Positions 5,969-17,677 of a DNA stretch of 20,519 nt are shown piece by piece. The translations under genes and the position numbers were made by a program. The DNA comes from a virus, in the IMG/VR virus record IMGVR_UViG_3300044858_001925, positions 1 through 20,519 of that record; one strand, written 5' to 3'. Below the pieces are notes generated by a model that saw only the letters and a program-made list of their open reading frames with translations, was not told the DNA's origin and did not search any database. Within the stretch, counting starts at the first letter, position 1. Each line of letters opens with the position of its first letter.

Positions 5969-6973
5969 ATGAGCGTAGATATCGATAACATATTAGCAAA
6001 GCTAGACCCTAAAACAAGAGCAAGAGTTCAATCTGCACAGGATGTACAAGTTGAAAAACAACTTACTCCAAGTATTGGACTAAACTTTGCATTACGTGGG
6101 GGGTTAGGATACGGTAGGCAAGTACTTGTATGGGGCAACAAGTCCGCTGGTAAATCTTCTTTTTGCTTACAAATGATCGCTCTTGCACAAAAAGAAGGTA
6201 AGACCTGTGCTTGGATTGATGCAGAAGCATCGTACGATCAGTCTTGGGCCGAGCAACTAGGAGTAGATTCATCTTCCCTTATTTACTCTCCTGCAAAAAC
6301 CGTTAATGATATGGTTGATGTAGCTACCAAGTTAATGGATGCAGGTGTTGATCTTATTGTTGTAGACTCTATCTCTGCATTACTTCCTGCTATTTATTTT
6401 GAAAAAGACGGAAATGAAATGAAGGATTTGCAAGATACAAAGCAAATCGGCGCTGAAGCAAAGGATATGACCCACGCAGTCAAGATGTTAAATTATGCAA
6501 ACAAAAACACACTACTTGTTCTCATCTCACAACAACGAAATCAATTTGGATCTATGCATGCTAGTCACATCCCCACGGGCGGCATGGCTGTCAAGTTCTT
6601 CTCTTCCACAGTTATCAAACTCTGGTCTTCTGAAGCTGAGGCTAATGCTATCAAAGCTGGCATTAAAGTTGGCGACAAAATTATTGAACAAAGAGTTGGC
6701 AGGCCAGTTAACTGGATTGTTGATTACAACAAGCTCGGCCCCCCAAATTTATCGGGACAATACGACTTCTACTACCAAGGGAGTGTTCTTGGTGTAGACA
6801 GTGTCGGAGAAACTTTAGACGTTGCAGAAATGTGCGGCATAGTAGAAAAAGGTGGAGCATGGTATACAGTAAATGGAGAACGTTTTCAAGGACGTGCAAA
6901 GGCTGTAGCATACTTAAAGGAAAATCAAGATGTTGTAGACAAATTAATAGGAGAAATAAATGCCAAACATTAA
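5969..6973 (+). CDS. recA: RecA/UvsX-like recombinase
   Basis: ATP-dependent strand-exchange protein for recombination-dependent replication and repair. In the 334-residue product, Walker A is GNKSAGKS (residues 56-63), where RecA has GPESSGKT. Walker B is LIVVD (129-133), followed by SISALLP. The motif LISQQRNQFGSM and the glycine-rich PTGGMAVKFFSS match the RecA strand and DNA-binding L2 region. It lacks the long C-terminal extension of bacterial RecA and is closest in style to phage UvsX/RecA. It has its own promoter and overlaps the following zinc-ribbon gene by 14 bases. It likely acts with the SSB, the Cas4-like nuclease and the RuvC-like resolvase encoded nearby. Confidence 0.93.
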   Translation: MSVDIDNILAKLDPKTRARVQSAQDVQVEKQLTPSIGLNFALRGGLGYGRQVLVWGNKSAGKSSFCLQMIALAQKEGKTCAWIDAEASYDQSWAEQLGVDSSSLIYSPAKTVNDMVDVATKLMDAGVDLIVVDSISALLPAIYFEKDGNEMKDLQDTKQIGAEAKDMTHAVKMLNYANKNTLLVLISQQRNQFGSMHASHIPTGGMAVKFFSSTVIKLWSSEAEANAIKAGIKVGDKIIEQRVGRPVNWIVDYNKLGPPNLSGQYDFYYQGSVLGVDSVGETLDVAEMCGIVEKGGAWYTVNGERFQGRAKAVAYLKENQDVVDKLIGEINAKH

Positions 6974-7148
6974 TGAGTTTCTTAATAAACCAGAGCGCAT
7001 CTTCCCTTCGGAGCTTGAAAGAATAGGCGGAGTAAAGCCTTGCAGTAAGTGTGACAAAGATTCTACAGAGTATTTTTGGGATGCATCTACAACAACTATA
7101 TCCTGGGAATGCCCTGACGGACATAAAAACTCTTACTCGGTGGGATAA
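6960..7148 (+). CDS. Small zinc-ribbon protein
   Basis: A 62-residue protein with one probable zinc site, PCSKCDK (C-x2-C) and ECPDGHKN (C-x3-H), about 20 residues apart, framing a short beta-hairpin. Such ribbons bind nucleic acid or proteins. It begins inside the end of the recombinase gene in another frame and ends one base into the next ATG (TAATG), so the three genes are probably co-translated. ATG with AGGAGAAATAA just upstream. No specific function can be named. Confidence 0.75.
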   Translation: MPNINEFLNKPERIFPSELERIGGVKPCSKCDKDSTEYFWDASTTTISWECPDGHKNSYSVG

Positions 7149-7450
7149 TGTCAGAAAGATCAGAAGTAAAACGTGACGGGGCCAAGGCTCAAAAGAATAG
7201 CGGAAGAGGAGATTATCAAAAGGGTGATGCTCAATGGAAGCAATTCCTTGTAGATTATAAAGAGGCTGGAACATCCTTTACTTTAAACAAAGATAACTGG
7301 GCAAAGATATGCACGGATACTTTTAAAGTAAATAGAGATATGTATCCAGCATTAAAGATTATTATAGGAGCAGAGTCTAAGGTTAGACTAGGCATTATTG
7401 AGTGGTCAGTTCTTGAAGAGCTGATCCAGTTTTATGAGGAGAACCACTAG
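7148..7450 (+). CDS. Small PD-(D/E)XK-like protein, possible nuclease
   Basis: A 100-residue protein with a glycine-rich, basic N-terminus (KAQKNSGRGDYQKGDA) followed by FLVDYKE. The spacing D27 ... D36-x-K38 resembles the PD-(D/E)XK nuclease core found in Hjc-type resolvases and VRR-NUC-like proteins, and the GRGDYQKGD turn fits the approach to the first acidic residue. The rest is helical, with FTLNKDNWAKICTDTF and a final LGIIEWSVLEELIQF. Placement next to the recombinase supports a DNA-processing role. Family assignment is by motif only and a degenerate, non-catalytic copy is possible. Confidence 0.65.
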   Translation: MSERSEVKRDGAKAQKNSGRGDYQKGDAQWKQFLVDYKEAGTSFTLNKDNWAKICTDTFKVNRDMYPALKIIIGAESKVRLGIIEWSVLEELIQFYEENH

Positions 7451-7557
7451 TGGAACTATTTTTAATTTGCGGTATTGCAATAGGATTTTTGATCGGCTAC
7501 CCACTGGGTTTATTTATAGACAAACTAGATAAGGATATTAAAAATGACGCAAGATAA
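7450..7557 (+). CDS. Small single-pass membrane protein (35 aa)
   Basis: Starts at GTG 7450, overlapping the previous stop by one base (TAGTG). It encodes a hydrophobic helix (LFLICGIAIGFLIGYPLGLFI) with glycines spaced as in packed transmembrane helices, then a charged tail (DKLDKDIKNDAR). It ends 14 bases inside the next gene. The tight overlap at both ends and the clean membrane-plus-tail layout support a real gene. Function unknown. Confidence 0.55.
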   Translation: MELFLICGIAIGFLIGYPLGLFIDKLDKDIKNDAR

Positions 7558-7882
7558 AAATACTCTTGAGCTAATCAGCGAAATAACAGAGTTTAATGAT
7601 CTTCATGAGTTTATGAAGGATGAGCACTTAGATAAAGCTTTGGCGATTGTTGTAAAGCTTCTTATGAACCCCGATGTGCCTTCGGCAAAGGCTCCTATGC
7701 TTATTATGGAACTACAGGCTATGTCAACTAAGTTTGCAGTAATGTCTTCTATCTATTCAACTATTGCTAAGGATAAAGCGGGCACAGTAAATAACAATAA
7801 AAAGAACGTGTATTATTCAGCAAAGGAGTCTATAGACAAACTTGTAGATGCGCTTAAGTATGTTGTTAGGTATAACTCATGA
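7544..7882 (+). CDS. Helical phage protein of unknown function
   Basis: A 112-residue, largely alpha-helical soluble protein. Recognisable segments are NDLHEFMKDEHLDKALAIVVKLL, a short PDVPSAKAP turn, a long helix LIMELQAMSTKFAVMSSIYSTI, and a C-terminal KKNVYYSAKESIDKLVDALKYVV. The look is that of a conserved phage hypothetical protein, but I cannot give a named family or function. It overlaps the preceding small membrane protein and the following secreted protein (ATGA), so it is part of the same translational unit. Confidence 0.75.
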   Translation: MTQDKNTLELISEITEFNDLHEFMKDEHLDKALAIVVKLLMNPDVPSAKAPMLIMELQAMSTKFAVMSSIYSTIAKDKAGTVNNNKKNVYYSAKESIDKLVDALKYVVRYNS

Positions 7883-8328
7883 TTCAAAAAAGAATTATGT
7901 TTTTGTTTATTTTTATTGGCTCGGCAATGGGCTTGTTTGTTTTAAATTCTAATCAACCAGAGTGCATTAACCTATATGTAGACTACGGAAATAATTCTAC
8001 AATAGAAAAGAAATGCGTCAGTGCCAGTGGTAAAGTTAATTCTTTAGATCTATTAAAGACACATGGGTATAATATAGAGGGAACAGTAAAGTATGGAAAT
8101 GCTGTTGTCTGCAGAGTAAATAATTTTCCCAACAACAGTGTTGAAAAATGCCAAGACATGCCACCAGAAAATGCATATTGGGCCGTGTTAGTAAAAAAGA
8201 ATCAGGTCTTGCCATTTCCAAGAAATGAATGGGGCTGGGCACAAAAGGGAATTAATGAAACTTTTGTCGAACCAGGAGACCACCTCGGCCTAGTATTTTC
8301 TACTAAAGGAGAAGTAAGATGGCCGTAG
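7879..8328 (+). CDS. Secreted DUF4430 (transcobalamin-C-like) protein
   Basis: A 149-residue protein with an N-terminal signal/anchor helix (about residues 5-22, FLFIFIGSAMGLFVL) and an extracytoplasmic domain. C29, C46, C78 and C90 could form two disulfides, expected outside the cell. The order of motifs matches secreted actinobacterial DUF4430/transcobalamin-C-like domains: INLYVDYGN, a conserved C46, SLDLLKTHGY, VVCRVNNFP, C90-x-D-M-PP-ENAYWAVL, then GWAQKG and EPGDHLGLVF. In bacteria this domain is often found near cobalamin or cobalt uptake genes. Here a cobalamin adenosyltransferase gene follows 133 bases later, with one tiny membrane gene between. A role in B12 capture is inference. 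Family call is from remembered pattern and needs a profile search. Confidence 0.65.
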   Translation: MIQKRIMFLFIFIGSAMGLFVLNSNQPECINLYVDYGNNSTIEKKCVSASGKVNSLDLLKTHGYNIEGTVKYGNAVVCRVNNFPNNSVEKCQDMPPENAYWAVLVKKNQVLPFPRNEWGWAQKGINETFVEPGDHLGLVFSTKGEVRWP

Positions 8329-8462
8329 AATTATTAGAAGAAAAGGTTAAGAATAAATCTTTTCCAGTATTAATTATTGCTCAGCTTTTTATAACAGTTG
8401 TTGCTTTGTCTGTAGTTAATGAAATTGCAGTAGATGTTTGGCGTTCTTTAAGGGGTCACTGA
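8319..8462 (+). CDS. Small single-pass membrane protein (47 aa)
   Basis: Reads from ATG 8319 (AAAGGAG at 8305-8311) to TGA 8460-8462. One transmembrane helix, PVLIIAQLFITVVALSVV, lies between a charged N-terminus (VELLEEKVKNK) and a short tail ending in RSLRGH. It overlaps the DUF4430 gene by 10 bases and shares TGATG with the adenosyltransferase start, so it is locked between the two and is probably made with them. Function unknown. Confidence 0.65.
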   Translation: MAVELLEEKVKNKSFPVLIIAQLFITVVALSVVNEIAVDVWRSLRGH

Positions 8463-8959
8463 TGGTAATACTAAGTAAAATTTATACTAAAACTGGCGAT
8501 GATGGGCAAACTTCTAACGCTAATAACGAAAGGGTGTCTAAGACTAGCCCTATAATGGAAGCGATAGGTGCTGTAGATGAGGCAAACTCTGCTATTGGAA
8601 TGGCAACCGATGAGTACAATGATGTTATTGAGAGAGTTCAAAGTGACTTATTTGATCTCGGTGCAGAACTTGCAGGTGCCCCAACAATAACAATATCTGA
8701 AAACAGGGTGACATACTTAGAAAATGTAATTGATGATTACAATGAATACCTAGAACCACTCAGGTCTTTTGTTTTGCCAACAGGCCCTTTGCATAACGCA
8801 AGAACTGTTGTAAGAAGGGCAGAACGTGAGGTTTGGAAGATCGAAAATATAAATCCAAACATTGCTAAATATTTAAATCGTCTATCAGACCTGTTGTTTG
8901 TTATGGCTAGATATCACAATAAAGGAAAAGAAAAATTATGGGTGCCAAGTAATGGCTAG
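8462..8959 (+). CDS. pduO: PduO-type ATP:cob(I)alamin adenosyltransferase
   Basis: Transfers the adenosyl group of ATP to cob(I)alamin, making adenosylcobalamin. The 165-residue protein contains the PduO/MMAB signature in order: KIYTKTGDDGQT (6-17, ATP loop), RVSKTSPIMEAIGAVDEANSAIG (24-46), LFDLGAELAG (63-72), FVLP, HNARTVVRRAER (111-122) and YLNRLSDLLFVMARY (137-151). The usual FxLPGGSxxAAxLHxAR segment is shortened by about five residues to LPTGPLHNAR, and the protein is a little shorter than typical (about 180-200 residues). Catalytic arginines and the NRLSD motif remain. The start at 8462 (TGATG overlap) is preferred to an ATG at 8438. It is an auxiliary metabolic gene in a phage, linked to a DUF4430 gene, and probably supports a B12-dependent enzyme. 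Confidence 0.92.
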   Translation: MVILSKIYTKTGDDGQTSNANNERVSKTSPIMEAIGAVDEANSAIGMATDEYNDVIERVQSDLFDLGAELAGAPTITISENRVTYLENVIDDYNEYLEPLRSFVLPTGPLHNARTVVRRAEREVWKIENINPNIAKYLNRLSDLLFVMARYHNKGKEKLWVPSNG

Positions 8960-9743
8960 AGAAATTGTAAGAAACCTTAAATTTAAAAAGCACACAGGAA
9001 AGTTTTTTGATCCTGAGTTGTTTGCTCAGTTACTTGATGAGTCATATCGTAATACTAAACGAGCAGACGGAGAGATGACCAAGAAGTCGTTTAGTCCAAG
9101 CTCACTTGGTTATGGTCATGGTAAGTGTCCTAGATACTGGTACATGGCATTTTCTGGCGCAGTCTTTATTGATGATAACGATGCAGTTGCTGTTGCTAAT
9201 ATGGCACAGGGAACTCAGGCGCATGAGCGACTACAGAAGCTTATTTCTACTATGCCAGAGTGGAGAGCGGAAGAAGAAGAAATTATTAATGAGTATCCAC
9301 CAATCAGAGGCTTTATAGATCTTATTATGGAGTACGATGGCGAGACAGTAATAGGTGAAATTAAAACGGCTAAGCAAGAAGTTTGGGATGCCAGACAATC
9401 AGAGATGAAGCCTACAGACAACCACATGCTACAACTTCTTACCTACATGAAACTGAAGAATGCTAAAGAAGGATTCTTTCTGTATGAGAATAAGAATACT
9501 CAAGAAATCCTAGTTATTCCAATTTCTATGAACGAAAAGAATACAAGGATTATCGAGGAGACCTTTGCCTGGATGTGCGAAGTCTGGGATAATTTTAAAG
9601 ATGGGGATCTTCCAAAAAGACCTGAAGGTGCTACTAAATCAAAGATGCCTTGTACTTACTGCCCAGTTAAGAAGGAGTGCTACGCAAAGGGTGGACCTGT
9701 AGGCACTGTTGAAATTGATTTGTTTTCGGTATCTAATATATGA
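8952..9743 (+). CDS. Cas4/RecB-like PD-(D/E)XK nuclease with Fe-S cysteines
   Basis: Probable exonuclease that trims DNA ends for recombination. Numbered from ATG 8952 (263 residues), it has H91 (AHERL), D123 (RGFIDLI), E136-x-K138 (IGEIKTA) and the QLLTYM helix (161-166), all of the RecB/Cas4 core. C59 in KCPRYW with C234, C237 and C243 in CTYCPVKKEC are placed as the four ligands of a [4Fe-4S] cluster, as in Cas4 and AddB. No CRISPR array or cas1/cas2 is present, so it is a stand-alone phage nuclease. It overlaps the adenosyltransferase stop by eight bases; a longer reading from 8898 would run 62 bases into that gene and is less likely. Confidence 0.9.
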   Translation: MAREIVRNLKFKKHTGKFFDPELFAQLLDESYRNTKRADGEMTKKSFSPSSLGYGHGKCPRYWYMAFSGAVFIDDNDAVAVANMAQGTQAHERLQKLISTMPEWRAEEEEIINEYPPIRGFIDLIMEYDGETVIGEIKTAKQEVWDARQSEMKPTDNHMLQLLTYMKLKNAKEGFFLYENKNTQEILVIPISMNEKNTRIIEETFAWMCEVWDNFKDGDLPKRPEGATKSKMPCTYCPVKKECYAKGGPVGTVEIDLFSVSNI

Positions 9744-10018
9744 TTTGCGCTAACTCTGAATGTAAAAAAGATTTTGTGCCTAAGACGCACAATCAAAAAT
9801 ACTGTACAGATGAGTGTTGCCGTGTTGCAACCAACAGAAGAATTATGGAAAAGTATTACGAAAAAAAAGCCATTAGGGGCGGTGCTGCAAGGCCTTGCTC
9901 AAAATGTAAAGCTCAGTTAAGCAGGTATAACAATTCAATGCTATGCTCAACTTGTGAGAAAAGCATTAACATAGATAATAAAAATAAGTTATTTAGGATG
10001 ATCGATGACGTTAGCTAG
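9740..10018 (+). CDS. Double zinc-finger protein
   Basis: A 92-residue basic protein with two probable zinc sites. The first is CANSECKKDF with KYCTDECC; the second is RPCSKCKA with MLCSTCEK. Between them lies a positively charged helix (TNRRIMEKYYEKKAIRGG). This layout is common among small phage DNA-binding or replication-associated proteins. It starts in ATGA overlap with the Cas4-like gene and overlaps the RuvC-like gene by 14 bases, which places it in the DNA-processing operon. No precise function can be named. Confidence 0.75.
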   Translation: MICANSECKKDFVPKTHNQKYCTDECCRVATNRRIMEKYYEKKAIRGGAARPCSKCKAQLSRYNNSMLCSTCEKSINIDNKNKLFRMIDDVS

Positions 10019-10571
10019 TTTAAAAAAGACACAGGCAGACAGAGTTCTTGGCATAGATGCCTCAACAAACTCTATTGCTTTTTGCTTGATGGAAAATGAT
10101 GTCCCATTAAAGTGGGGAAAGATTGAACTGCGTGGCCTTGATATATATGAAAAGATACACGATGCAAAGAATAAAATGCATTCAATGCTTGAAGAGTTAA
10201 GATCAGATTATATTGTTGTTGAAGGTGCGGTGTTTGTAAAGTCTGCAGATGCTGTAATTAAACTATCATATGTTTATGGAGTTGTTATAGCAGAGTTGAT
10301 GTCTACTGGAGCGAAGGTTATTACAATAGCCCCATCCTCTTGGCAGGCATACATAGGCAATAAGAACCCAACCAAAGAAGAGAAGCAGGCAATAAAAGCA
10401 CTTAACCCAGGCTATGCTGACTCTTGGTATCAAAACAAATTAAGGAACATGAGGAAGCAGAGAACTGCTGACTACTTTAACAGGAAGTATAATTTAAATG
10501 TGGTGGATTTTGACGTTGCAGATAGCTTTGGTATTGCACATTATGCTAACAAAGTACTAACAGAGCGATGA
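10005..10571 (+). CDS. RuvC-like Holliday junction resolvase
   Basis: Probable endonuclease that cuts four-way or branched DNA before packaging. The 188-residue protein has an RNase H/RuvC fold signature: D18 in LGIDASTNSIAF, E73 in DYIVVEGAVF, and the C-terminal acidic pair D170/D173 in DFDVADSFGIAHYA. The loop APSSWQAYIGNK and the helix ending NKLRNMRKQRTADYF resemble RuvC and phage resolvases of this class. It sits beside the Cas4-like nuclease and upstream of the terminase. The stop overlaps the next ATG (ATGA). Substrate is inferred from the family. Confidence 0.88.
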   Translation: MTLASLKKTQADRVLGIDASTNSIAFCLMENDVPLKWGKIELRGLDIYEKIHDAKNKMHSMLEELRSDYIVVEGAVFVKSADAVIKLSYVYGVVIAELMSTGAKVITIAPSSWQAYIGNKNPTKEEKQAIKALNPGYADSWYQNKLRNMRKQRTADYFNRKYNLNVVDFDVADSFGIAHYANKVLTER

Positions 10572-13659: not shown

Positions 13660-13733
13660 GCAACAATAGCTTAGTTGGTTAAAGCCCCGAACTCATAATT
13701 CGGTAATCGTAGGTTCAAGTCCTACTTGTTGCA
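13660..13733 (+). tRNA. tRNA with CAU anticodon (Met elongator or Ile2)
   Basis: A full cloverleaf of 74 bases. The acceptor stem GCAACAA/TTGTTGC is seven pairs; the D stem is GCT/AGC; the anticodon stem CCGAA/TTCGG holds loop CTCATAA with CAT at 13694-13696; the T arm is GTAGG/CCTAC with TTCAAGT. Discriminator A; CCA is not encoded. The first pair is G-C and the anticodon stem lacks three G-C pairs, so it is not an initiator. A CAU anticodon can be elongator Met or, if modified to lysidine, Ile(AUA). The sequence alone does not decide. Confidence 0.93.
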
Positions 13734-13745
13734 CAGGGAGACAAT

Positions 13746-14066
13746 ATGACAGAAGACGAAGCAAATGATGCAAGGCTTGCATACTACTTAGAAATAGGTG
13801 CCGTAAGTTTTGAAGGTGTTGATGAAAGCGGAGAAATAATTTATTCAATTAGTGATAGTGCAAAAGAGTTGGCTCCAGAGCTTTGGCAATCACATATAGA
13901 ATATGTAGATAAGTCTTTAATGGATTTGTATGAAAAAGGTCTTGCCCATATTGAGTACAATGAAGATTTAGAAGCAATTATTAGCTTAAGCCCAGAAGGC
14001 CAAAAGCTTGCAAAAGAAATGGGATTGATTGAAATGGATCTGGATCGAGATATTCCAAATGATTAG
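13746..14066 (+). CDS. Acidic protein of unknown function between tRNAs
   Basis: A 106-residue acidic protein starting 12 bases after the first tRNA, with GGGAG (13736-13740) as ribosome site. EIIYSISDSAKELAPELW, DKSLMDLYEKGLAHIEY and AIISLSPEGQKLAKEMG read like a small winged-helix domain with a beta wing, but without the usual basic surface. The function is unknown. It is separated from the second tRNA by only five bases and is probably made from the same transcript as the tRNAs, which must then be cut out. Confidence 0.7.
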   Translation: MTEDEANDARLAYYLEIGAVSFEGVDESGEIIYSISDSAKELAPELWQSHIEYVDKSLMDLYEKGLAHIEYNEDLEAIISLSPEGQKLAKEMGLIEMDLDRDIPND

Positions 14067-14071
14067 TCTAT

Positions 14072-14144
14072 GCCTTCGTAGCTCAGGGGATAGAGCGAGA
14101 CTCTTCTAAGGTCTGCGTCGCAGGTTCGATTCCTGCCGAGGGCA
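14072..14144 (+). tRNA. tRNA-Arg(UCU)
   Basis: A 73-base cloverleaf. Acceptor GCCTTCG/CGAGGGC (one T-G pair), D stem GCTC/GAGC, anticodon stem AGACT/GGTCT (one T-G pair) with loop CTTCTAA and anticodon TCT at 14105-14107, T arm GCAGG/CCTGC with TTCGATT. Discriminator A, no encoded CCA. It reads AGA and AGG, and AGA is used heavily in the genes around it, so it probably helps phage translation in a host poor in this tRNA. Confidence 0.95.
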
Positions 14145-14148
14145 CAAT

Positions 14149-14219
14149 GCGGATGTTGCATATTGGTAGTGCCTCTGCCTTCCAAGCAGAAGGGGTGAGT
14201 TCGATTCTCATCATCCGCT
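14149..14219 (+). tRNA. tRNA-Gly(UCC)
   Basis: A 71-base cloverleaf. Acceptor GCGGATG/CATCCGC, D stem GCA/TGC, anticodon stem TCTGC/GCAGA with loop CTTCCAA and anticodon TCC at 14181-14183, T arm GTGAG/CTCAT (one G-T pair) with TTCGATT. Discriminator T, usual for tRNA-Gly; CCA is not encoded. It reads GGA, a frequent glycine codon here. It lies four bases after tRNA-Arg. Confidence 0.94.
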
Positions 14220-14964: not shown

Positions 14965-15381
14965 ATGGTAACACAATTCGCAATGGATCTATTTAATGAT
15001 CCTTTTTTTATTGGCTTTAACAGGGACCTAGCCCGTCTAAATAGTGCACACAAAATCAACTCTCAATCATATCCTCCATATGATCTTCTTAAATTAGATG
15101 AAGATACATATAGGTTATCGCTTGCTATTGCAGGATTTACCAAGGAAGATGTCAGTGTTTCAGTAGAAGATGGAACGCTTATCATTAAGGGTGAAATTGT
15201 AGAGGTTACAGATGCAGAAATTGTTCACAAGGGTATTGCTGGTAGAAAGTTCGTCAGATCTTTTGCTCTAGGTGAATACATGGAAGTATCTGGTGCAGAG
15301 CTAAAGGACGGCATGCTACATATTAATGTTGATCGCATTGTTCCAGAAGAAAAAAAGCCTAAAGCAATTAAAATCAAGTAA
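14965..15381 (+). CDS. ibpA: Small heat-shock protein (Hsp20/IbpA-type)
   Basis: A holdase chaperone that keeps unfolding proteins soluble. The 138-residue protein follows the bacterial IbpA/class-A pattern: N-terminal FNDPFFIGFNRDLARLN, then YPPYDLLKLDEDTYRLSLAIAGFTKEDVSVSVEDGTLIIKGE, VHKGIAGRKFVRSFALGEYMEVSGAELKDGMLHINV, and a C-terminal KKPKAIKIK carrying the I-x-I motif. The alpha-crystallin domain is complete. Hsp20 genes are known in some phages, notably cyanophages, where they may help head assembly or keep the host alive under stress. Good ribosome site AAAGGGG, possibly masked in a hairpin. Confidence 0.92.
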   Translation: MVTQFAMDLFNDPFFIGFNRDLARLNSAHKINSQSYPPYDLLKLDEDTYRLSLAIAGFTKEDVSVSVEDGTLIIKGEIVEVTDAEIVHKGIAGRKFVRSFALGEYMEVSGAELKDGMLHINVDRIVPEEKKPKAIKIK

Positions 15382-15733: not shown

Positions 15734-17677
15734 TTGACTAGGACTAAAGCATGGAGATTATCATTAGCATTCATTTTAATGTTTGGATGGCTATTTCTCA
15801 CACCTGCTTATAGCGATGATCCACTTTCAGTTGCCGCTGAAGAGATAGCAGAACTAAACGAAAAGGTAACAAATCTTACAGAAGAGGCAGATACTAGAGC
15901 CTTAATAGATATAGCAGAAGACAAATACGATGCAGCAGTAGCATCAAAATCTGCTAGGGATAGCGCATATGCTGCATATAATGAGGCGGTAGAAGCAGAA
16001 ACAACAGCATTGTCTGAAAAAACAACAGCTCAATCAGCAGTAGATGGGCAAACGGTAACAGTTGCTACAGCCTTAGAAGATAAAAACGATGCTCAAGATG
16101 TATTAGATATAGCAAACATAAATCTACAAACAACGCAATCTACTGTTCAATCCGCTGGTAATCAGGGACTGGAATATACTGTTTATACCTTATTAAGAAA
16201 TGGTAGCCAAGCAGTGACTGGATCTGTTATATGTACTGGTATATGGAATTCAAATTCAATGAACCTCCCAGTTTGCGGATATTACGAAGATATCATTGTT
16301 AAGTTTACTGGAAAAATTACAGTTCCTTCAGACTGGACTTCAGTATATTTTGCAGGATATACAGATGATGGTTTTAGGATGTATGTGGACGGAAACCTTG
16401 CCGTTGATAACTGGGTAGAACAAGGATCGACATGGAGTCCTTACTCACCAGTTTATGATGTTAGTCAAGATAAAACTTTAGATGTAGAAATATGGTGGTA
16501 TAACGGTGGCGGCCCAGGCTCGTATCACCTTGGCTGGTCAATTCCAGGCGGGTGGACTGGTGCGGGATGTGCTTATACTGGAGGATGGGGTATAGGATTT
16601 AGTTGTAATTTAAATACATTTTCTTATGGCGTAGGTGCAACGCAATCACAAATTGATGCATACAATGCAGCAATAACTGCACAGGCGACGGCACAGACAG
16701 ATTACAATACTAAGCTTGCTACATACAATACAGCAAATTCTACATTAACCACATACAGTCAAACATTAACAACTAAGACTAATACCTATAATACTGCAGT
16801 AACAAATACAGCAAATGCATTAGCTGCTAAAAATAATACACAGTCAACTTATGATCAATCTATTATTAATTTAAATAATGCAATAGATGATGCATGGGAA
16901 TTATATAATGAAACTTGGCAATTTGAAGAACAACAAAGAGTTGCTGCAGCAATAGCTGCTGCTATGGCAAATCAACCGCAGCCAACTCCAGATGCAACAA
17001 CTGATCCTACGCCTGAACCTTCTCCTGAGCCATCACCTGAACAAACTGAACCAGACGATTCCACTCCAACTCCAGATTCTGAAACCACAGATGAACCGAC
17101 ACCAGATCCAACTCCTGAGACAGAGCCCACTGATGAGCCTTCACCAGAGCCTTCACCTCAGCCATCGGATATAGATCAAGAGCCAACTCCTGAACCAGAG
17201 CCAACTCCTGCTGAACCTTCTGAAGAACCATCTACCAATACTATCACAGAAGAGACAGCAAACCTAATTGCAGATTTAACAAGCAAAGATACATTAACTA
17301 AATTAACTCCAGAACAAAAAGCGGCTGTTGCGGAAGGACTTGGAATTAGAGCATCAGAAATAGCAAAGGTGGCAGCATTAGCTGCTACTGATAAAAATTT
17401 AGCAACAGCTCTAGAAGAATTCGGTGATAGAATTAAAGAAAACGCTAGTGCTCCAATGCCATATACATTAGCAGATGCAACAACAGAGGTTGCCACAGAA
17501 GCATTTTTATCAGACCCAATTGGAGCTATTACGGATATTGATTTTGAGAAATTATTTAGCCCATCAGAATGGGGTAAAGATATGACGGATGATCAAAGAG
17601 AAAAAGCACAAGAGGTTGTAGTGCCAGTAATTATTGCAGGAAATATAGTGGCAGCAGCCATGACAAGGAGGATATAA
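15734..17677 (+). CDS. Secreted PA14-domain protein with coiled coils and Pro-rich linker
   Basis: A 647-residue exported protein starting at TTG with a strong ribosome site. Residues 1-27 are a signal peptide (basic start, LSLAFILMFGWLFL, cleavage likely after PAYS). A coiled-coil region rich in A, E and K follows (about 30-140), then a PA14-like beta-sandwich (about 145-280: VYFAGYTDDGFRMYVDG, DVEIWWYNGG, SYHLGWSIPGGW). A second alanine/threonine-rich coiled coil follows (305-400), then a Pro/Thr/Glu/Ser linker (about 415-505), a helical domain, and a hydrophobic end (VVVPVIIAGNIVAAAM) that may anchor it. PA14 domains bind carbohydrates. A signal peptide is unusual for a virion protein, so it may act on the host surface or in the envelope before lysis. 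Role unknown. Confidence 0.82.
   Translation: MTRTKAWRLSLAFILMFGWLFLTPAYSDDPLSVAAEEIAELNEKVTNLTEEADTRALIDIAEDKYDAAVASKSARDSAYAAYNEAVEAETTALSEKTTAQSAVDGQTVTVATALEDKNDAQDVLDIANINLQTTQSTVQSAGNQGLEYTVYTLLRNGSQAVTGSVICTGIWNSNSMNLPVCGYYEDIIVKFTGKITVPSDWTSVYFAGYTDDGFRMYVDGNLAVDNWVEQGSTWSPYSPVYDVSQDKTLDVEIWWYNGGGPGSYHLGWSIPGGWTGAGCAYTGGWGIGFSCNLNTFSYGVGATQSQIDAYNAAITAQATAQTDYNTKLATYNTANSTLTTYSQTLTTKTNTYNTAVTNTANALAAKNNTQSTYDQSIINLNNAIDDAWELYNETWQFEEQQRVAAAIAAAMANQPQPTPDATTDPTPEPSPEPSPEQTEPDDSTPTPDSETTDEPTPDPTPETEPTDEPSPEPSPQPSDIDQEPTPEPEPTPAEPSEEPSTNTITEETANLIADLTSKDTLTKLTPEQKAAVAEGLGIRASEIAKVAALAATDKNLATALEEFGDRIKENASAPMPYTLADATTEVATEAFLSDPIGAITDIDFEKLFSPSEWGKDMTDDQREKAQEVVVPVIIAGNIVAAAMTRRI
16977..17245 (+). 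repeat. Degenerate Pro/Thr/Glu/Ser-coding repeats
   Basis: Short in-frame units such as CCTTCTCCTGAGCC and CCAACTCCTGAACC, repeated with silent variation, encode TPEP, SPEP and TDEP blocks. They form an acidic, extended linker between the second coiled coil and the C-terminal domain, as in bacterial cell-wall-spanning segments. Copy number may differ between relatives. Confidence 0.75.

Follow-up and report, generated by a model that had tools for sequence, protein, structure and literature searches.

A phage gene trio predicted to capture and activate vitamin B12 for deoxynucleotide synthesis

Three overlapping genes on a viral DNA record very probably form an operon by which a phage acquires and activates vitamin B12 for dNTP synthesis, with binding, transport and catalysis as the presumed functions of the products. 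The window analyzed here is the whole stretch of that record, 20,519 bases long and evidently a fragment; relatives reach 115 kb. The original prediction had read the trio as a B12 module and this reading is supported. The overlapping open reading frames, the secreted-type first protein with four cysteines and the 47-residue membrane protein that it described were all confirmed (Table 1). The hosts of these phages, we infer, are freshwater Actinobacteria of the order that includes Candidatus Planktophila.

Table 1. Genes of the overlapping block that contains the trio (window positions).
Gene	Position	Strand	Features
Upstream context gene, phrog_9818, unknown phage gene	7544..7882	+	4 bp overlap with first gene
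First gene	7879..8328	+	149 aa ORF; one N-terminal hydrophobic stretch; four Cys
Membrane gene	8319..8462	+	47 aa ORF; one hydrophobic stretch
Adenosyltransferase (ACAT) gene	8462..8959	+	165 aa from ATG; compact phage form
Downstream context gene, Cas4/RecE-like PD-(D/E)XK exonuclease	8952..9743	+	overlaps ACAT gene end

Since each gene overlaps the start of the next from 7544 to 9743 on the plus strand, the five genes form one block. An ATGA overlap joins the upstream gene to the start of the first gene, and an alternative TTG start of the ACAT gene, at 8438, is also open. Genes for a DnaG-like primase, RecA, MazG, a RuvC-like protein and the Cas4-like exonuclease make up the neighborhood. 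The named phages nearest to the window by DNA were 35 Streptomyces phage records, and the ten of these that were listed match it over about 700 bases, with about 70% identity, in a region annotated as terminase in those phages. No permease or transport ATPase was identified among the window genes that were family-searched, from 5969 to 10571. The trio itself encodes no permease. In relatives the neighboring genes were judged by eye.

By profile, the third gene certainly encodes a PduO-type cob(I)alamin adenosyltransferase, as had been proposed. The product matched PF01923 with E 2.9e-50 (171.1 bits, cut-off 24) and TIGR00636 with 155.3 bits (cut-off 108.45). Its best PDB sequences were 2g2d and 6wgs (E about 1e-31), which we take to be from Mycobacterium tuberculosis. 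The motifs YTKTGDDG, VDEANS, RRAER and YLNRLSDLLFV, presumably with catalytic roles, are invariant in 12 diverse phage copies, window included, and align with these two solved enzymes; a divergent phage copy (L296) has GDAG in place of GDDG. In a tree of 47 rows, a long branch bears a clade (100/99) of 13 compact phage enzymes, that of the window among them, and four longer phage copies (L107, L186, L211 and L220) grouped closer to enzymes of Actinobacteria. Support is weak (71/84) at the forks that join phage to bacterial rows, and the program warned of long branches meeting. It is possible that all phage copies share one origin, and adenosyltransferases of more than one lineage may have come to occupy the ACAT position of the operon. 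Among the best 80 rows listed for a host-like phage copy, the best bacterial matches were Actinobacteria, mostly metagenome-assembled genomes (MAGs), and the enzyme of Candidatus Planktophila versatilis was 72% identical. The adenosyltransferase of L315, titled a Bifidobacterium breve MAG, groups among freshwater Actinobacteria, and this label may be wrong. Only 15 of 50,697 phage records matched the window enzyme, each below 60% identity, and neither Streptomyces nor Mycobacterium appears in their names.

A class II ribonucleotide reductase had been suggested as the B12-dependent enzyme, encoded elsewhere in the genome. The window record, being a fragment, has no such gene of its own; an RTPR-type reductase is found in long relatives, and in many relatives its gene lies directly before the trio. 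Within the clade of the window, 7 of 13 long records carry an RTPR elsewhere in the genome. In six of the seven it lies about 59-70 kb upstream; in G003, perhaps a circularly permuted record, it lies 47 kb downstream. The six records without it end, by coordinates, before its expected place, G011 only just. Scores against TIGR02505 (cut-off 340.05) were 356 bits for the L144-type reductase, above the cut-off, and 303 bits, below it, for the L141-type reductase of the window clade. The latter matched the ribonucleoside triphosphate reductase 1l1l with E 1.9e-45 and retains the residues that align with C119, C408 and C419 of that enzyme, which is presumably B12-dependent and of Lactobacillus origin and whose three cysteines we take to be in the active site. 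TIGR02505 was also run on 17 records, six of them searched before, and matched three (G023, G026 and G027) at 249-254 bits, below the cut-off; seven of the 17 carry the first, membrane and ACAT genes in order without an adjoining RTPR, and it was three of these seven that matched.

Relatives of the RTPR occur in 1,191 phage records, with about 66% identity in the best of the Streptomyces phages; Streptomyces make B12. None of the 50,697 phage records matched the first protein at E <= 1, with the window, a divergent phage and a host sequence as queries. Because the reductase is thus widespread in this phage collection, ACAT matches are few and the first protein had none, the B12 genes are, within the collection, an addition in the freshwater relatives.

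The first gene product is predicted to be a membrane-anchored or secreted protein with one extracytoplasmic transcobalamin-beta-like (SLBB/DUF4430-type) domain that captures B12. The likeness to DUF4430 and the transcobalamin C-terminal domain that had been claimed for it held in the modeled fold but not in the Pfam profile: PF14478 (DUF4430) had no match to the window protein at E <= 1 and none among 26 first-protein sequences, window included, at E <= 10. No credible family was found for the first protein in Pfam, NCBIfam and PHROGs searches, the SCO2322 family (NF040672) had no NCBIfam match at E <= 0.1 to either the window protein or a host copy, and the first-protein profile run against PDB sequences returned chance-level rows only. 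The window query found relatives at 58 viral loci, and a profile found them in 146 stretches, of which the best 80 were kept. None of the four cysteines varies among 26 diverse sequences, that of the window among them.

An initial structure model built from 12 sequences was dropped (pLDDT 60.4). A 26-sequence model of the mature domain, residues 25-149, reached a pLDDT of 90.5 and a pTM of 0.85. Foldseek's own matches to this model were re-aligned (hereafter VIA), and the top 14 entries were all beta domains of transcobalamin, haptocorrin or intrinsic factor, or 3u7z, which we take to be a DUF4430 member, with Z 9.8-10.9 over 93-96 residues. Below these 14 entries the scores dropped to Z 5.8, with ferredoxins and ubiquitin-like proteins. 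The same proteins led the Foldseek search itself, in which the best E was 8.5e-3 and none was at or below 0.001, and the best match in a viral structure library had E 0.43. A beta-hairpin inserted after a helix is described as a mark of the transcobalamin-like SLBB fold (PMC1796856). The predicted strands 42-45 and 49-56 directly follow helix 31-37, so that the model has this inserted hairpin. The 149-residue protein amounts to the beta domain alone, lacking the N-terminal alpha/alpha toroid of transcobalamin and intrinsic factor.

Homologues of the first gene were found with a 26-domain phage profile in six of 151 genomes from the order of Ca. P. versatilis, with E 1.6e-37 to 6.4e-42. A peptide-pattern scan of host DNA with the first protein had shown no relative; the whole-genome profile search then found these copies. 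PF14478 gave two weak matches in five host-lineage genomes, none above cut-off. All six homologues lie at the same conserved site of the chromosome, each followed by a gene encoding a one-span protein of 53-56 residues, and a riboswitch at gathering score lies directly upstream of the pair. Five of these riboswitches are of the AdoCbl type (RF01482, 56.8-62.1 bits) and one is of the Cobalamin type (RF00174, 38 bits). In five of the six genomes the riboswitch of the pair is the sole RF01482 match at E <= 0.01. These riboswitches are evidence beyond the basis of the original prediction. In G046, G048 and G056 the pair locus lies on a contig of 1.16-1.24 Mb; the completeness of the six genomes was not reported. 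A second AdoCbl-type match in G056 (G056:C1:253658-253798, L410; 46.0 bits, below gathering score) lies upstream of the class Ib nrdHIEF genes, and in this genome, which also has class II NrdJ, it suggests a possible B12-controlled switching of reductases. Among the phages, RF00174, the sole model searched there, was absent from 15 long records, and no Rfam riboswitch was found in the window, so that riboswitch control of the phage genes is unsupported.

The host riboswitches bear on what the first protein binds. It is unlikely that the beta-grasp fold has been reused for another ligand or for bare cobalt, with only the ACAT and RTPR being B12-related. Such a reading would fit the title of 3u7z, one of the best structural matches, as a putative metal-binding protein, as well as the missing alpha toroid and the conserved tryptophan and acidic residues, which could hold a different ligand. 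Yet AdoCbl or cobalamin riboswitches precede the host homologue, and the transcobalamin beta domain by itself is described as binding CNCbl and was crystallized with cyanocobalamin (PMC5599065). Cobalamin capture is the preferred reading of the modeled domain.

The pair is missing from Ca. P. versatilis, where the single riboswitch leads an operon for an SCO2322-family secreted protein and the T, ATPase and S genes of an ECF transporter. This operon occupies the same chromosomal site as the host pair, judged by neighboring genes in one relative, and shares its riboswitch control. Aligned by hhalign with the C-terminal half of SCO2322 proteins, the first half of the phage domain scored 28.8, above the highest score of 100 column shuffles at 21.4; the second half scored 11.9, below the best of 100 shuffles at 16.0, and its W/G motifs were seen at the SCO2322 N-terminus (L409:2956-3492 and L434-L453 compared). 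The two proteins may be related by circular permutation, with significance in the first half only. The SCO2322 operon differs in that its domain halves stand in the other order and a complete transporter is present.

The ECF-T of the SCO2322 operon was found in 100 of the 151 genomes overall and in none of the six with the pair (Fisher p 0.0012, the genomes not being independent), and FecCD permeases were found in none of the six as against all three comparison genomes. PF02361 in any form was above cut-off in one of the six (G155) and weak in G056; for this reason a full absence of B12 importers from these genomes is weakened as a reading. The importer families covered in the six were FecCD, the SCO2322-type ECF-T and PF02361. 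Class II NrdJ was above cut-off in all nine host-lineage genomes tested. Candidatus Planktophila has been treated as dependent on partners for B12 in a published survey (PMC7527133). Because the pair stands alone behind its riboswitch in six genomes in which neither FecCD nor an SCO2322-type ECF-T was found, yet class II NrdJ is present, we tentatively raise the idea, doubtful as it is, that the pair alone constitutes an undescribed B12 import route that phages have adopted to pull B12 into infected cells.

Another use of the phage ACAT would be regulatory, mainly through an increase in AdoCbl that shuts host genes controlled by AdoCbl riboswitches. Such riboswitches exist in these bacteria, including the one below gathering score before nrdHIEF. 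However, only one or two RF01482 matches per genome were found in the seven host genomes searched, and B12 uptake would fall as a result, contrary to what the first two genes appear to be for. We regard this explanation as extremely improbable.

The membrane protein has a single span and a conserved C-terminal W-R-x-x-x-G-H tail, shared by all 13 of the diverse phage copies compared. The host one-span proteins have a similar tail, W-R-x-W-G-(G/A)-(H/C), with one more tyrosine in two copies. Overall, the host and phage proteins are weakly alike (hhalign probability 10%; hmmsearch E 4e-4 to 0.09, with six targets). The membrane protein is predicted to be a partner of the first protein.

Conservation of the trio in relatives, which the original prediction had proposed, was borne out. 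Many of the 274 loci fetched came from the same contigs, and at the DNA level they reduced to 76 distinct forms of the first gene, some of which are truncated where the contig ends. The membrane gene adjoins the first gene in 73 of the 76 loci, and in the other three the stretch ends inside the first gene. The ACAT gene adjoins the pair in most loci. The order RTPR, first gene, membrane gene, ACAT was found in 43 of the 76, and the same order without an adjoining ACAT in three, so that an RTPR lies just upstream of the first gene in 46. The distance from the RTPR stop to the first-gene start is within about 50 bases in 44 of these 46; L107 and L108 have a gene-sized gap there, which in L107 holds a WhiB regulator. 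The window-type order, in which recA and the phrog_9818 gene precede the trio and the exonuclease follows it, was found in 14 loci, and with some flanking genes missing in a further one, four and three. Eight had the trio and no RTPR in the stretch. ACAT was absent altogether from 4 of 13 records searched, which are fragments.

Conversely, the ACAT gene occurs without the first gene at 32 of 134 loci. At 25 of these 32 a phrog_9818-type gene directly precedes ACAT, which starts 3 nt after the last aligned codon of that gene; two others have the phrog_9818-type gene further off and five are cut off just upstream. Between the window and L010, L005, L052 and L026, dS was 0.03-0.17 for the pair and 0.41-0.52 for ACAT. 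The low-dS contrast was confined to the membrane gene in L039 and was reversed in L002. Because dS of the pair is so far below that of ACAT, and because the pair is absent from some ACAT loci, the pair can be read as moving between phages as a cassette. Against six chosen close relatives, NG86 dN/dS of the window genes was 0.11-0.31 for the first gene, 0.11-0.58 for the 47-codon membrane gene, which has few sites, and 0.03-0.09 for ACAT.

A two-gene cassette gained and lost as a unit, with a first protein that diverges faster than ACAT, could also point to superinfection exclusion, in which the anchored protein would block or occupy a host B12 receptor or importer used by rival phages and the adjoining ACAT would be incidental. 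Exclusion factors are commonly small exported proteins. Nevertheless, the host lineage keeps its own copies behind a B12 riboswitch, and the phage pair stands between RTPR and ACAT in 43 of the 76 distinct loci, making exclusion a very unlikely account of the pair.

Under the preferred reading, B12 acquisition and activation, the first protein would be anchored in the host membrane with its modeled transcobalamin-beta-like domain outside, where it may bind cobalamin. Because the two proteins are constantly paired in phages and hosts, the membrane protein probably acts with the first, docking it to a B12 membrane route or helping to form one. Inside the cell the PduO-family enzyme would convert cob(I)alamin to adenosylcobalamin, which would feed the phage's own class II RTPR-type reductase and probably also host NrdJ.

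The set most like this one is the nrdJ-cbrS-cbrT-pduO cluster of the B12-auxotroph Lactobacillus delbrueckii (ECF-CbrT), in which an AdoCbl-dependent reductase, B12 uptake components and PduO are likewise clustered (PMC5997447). That cluster is bacterial, and its uptake part is described as an ECF S-component that functions together with an ECF module (PMC5997447), whereas the phage set has a transcobalamin-like domain and a one-span protein, with neither a permease nor an ATPase beside them. What is new relative to the Lactobacillus cluster is that the uptake component differs and the set is phage-borne. The first protein also resembles the transcobalamin-like clade of the SLBB beta-grasp superfamily in fold, in predicted extracytoplasmic location and, in hosts, in B12-linked regulation, and bacterial secreted members of that clade were proposed as B12 scavengers (PMC1796856). 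The phage protein differs in having no PF14478 match and no alpha/alpha toroid, in being phage-borne and in not lying beside CbiO/CbiQ. DUF4430 is presumably a member of the same clade.

Aquatic phages with B12-dependent ribonucleotide reductases have been described as common in the ocean. Phage class II RTPRs, including those of cobaviruses, share the AdoCbl-dependent reductase with the phages analyzed here, but no phage B12 uptake or adenosylation genes are described with them in the available text of PMC10547690 and PMC6775973. That RTPR viruses might regulate or enhance B12 uptake has been raised as a possibility (PMC10547690). Consistent with the earlier claim that no described phage system has this composition, the literature search, over listings and selected passages of open-access papers, turned up no description of comparable phage genes for B12 uptake. 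If the present reading is correct, B12 supply is something that a virus actively manages during infection, with an extracellular vitamin-capture protein that the virus itself carries, and a riboswitch-controlled gene pair of an abundant freshwater bacterial order gains a candidate function in B12 uptake. The way in which RTPR phages secure B12 becomes testable with named genes.

Several other genes were observed near the trio or in the window. A 480-residue cytochrome P450 (L182:3276-4718; PF00067, E 1.2e-72) is encoded near an RTPR and the gene pair on a viral contig. An S-adenosylmethionine decarboxylase family gene (L186:9369-9752; PF02675) lies near the trio in another locus, and open reading frames resembling it occur in L181 and L227, the PF02675 match being from L186 only. 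In the window, positions 15734-17677 encode a long protein, possibly a surface-binding one, whose N-terminus is hydrophobic and whose tail is rich in proline and acidic residues; its match to PA14 is weak (E 1.2e-5). A small heat-shock protein, HSP20, is encoded at 14965-15381 (E 3.9e-18), and three tRNA genes lie at 13660-14219.
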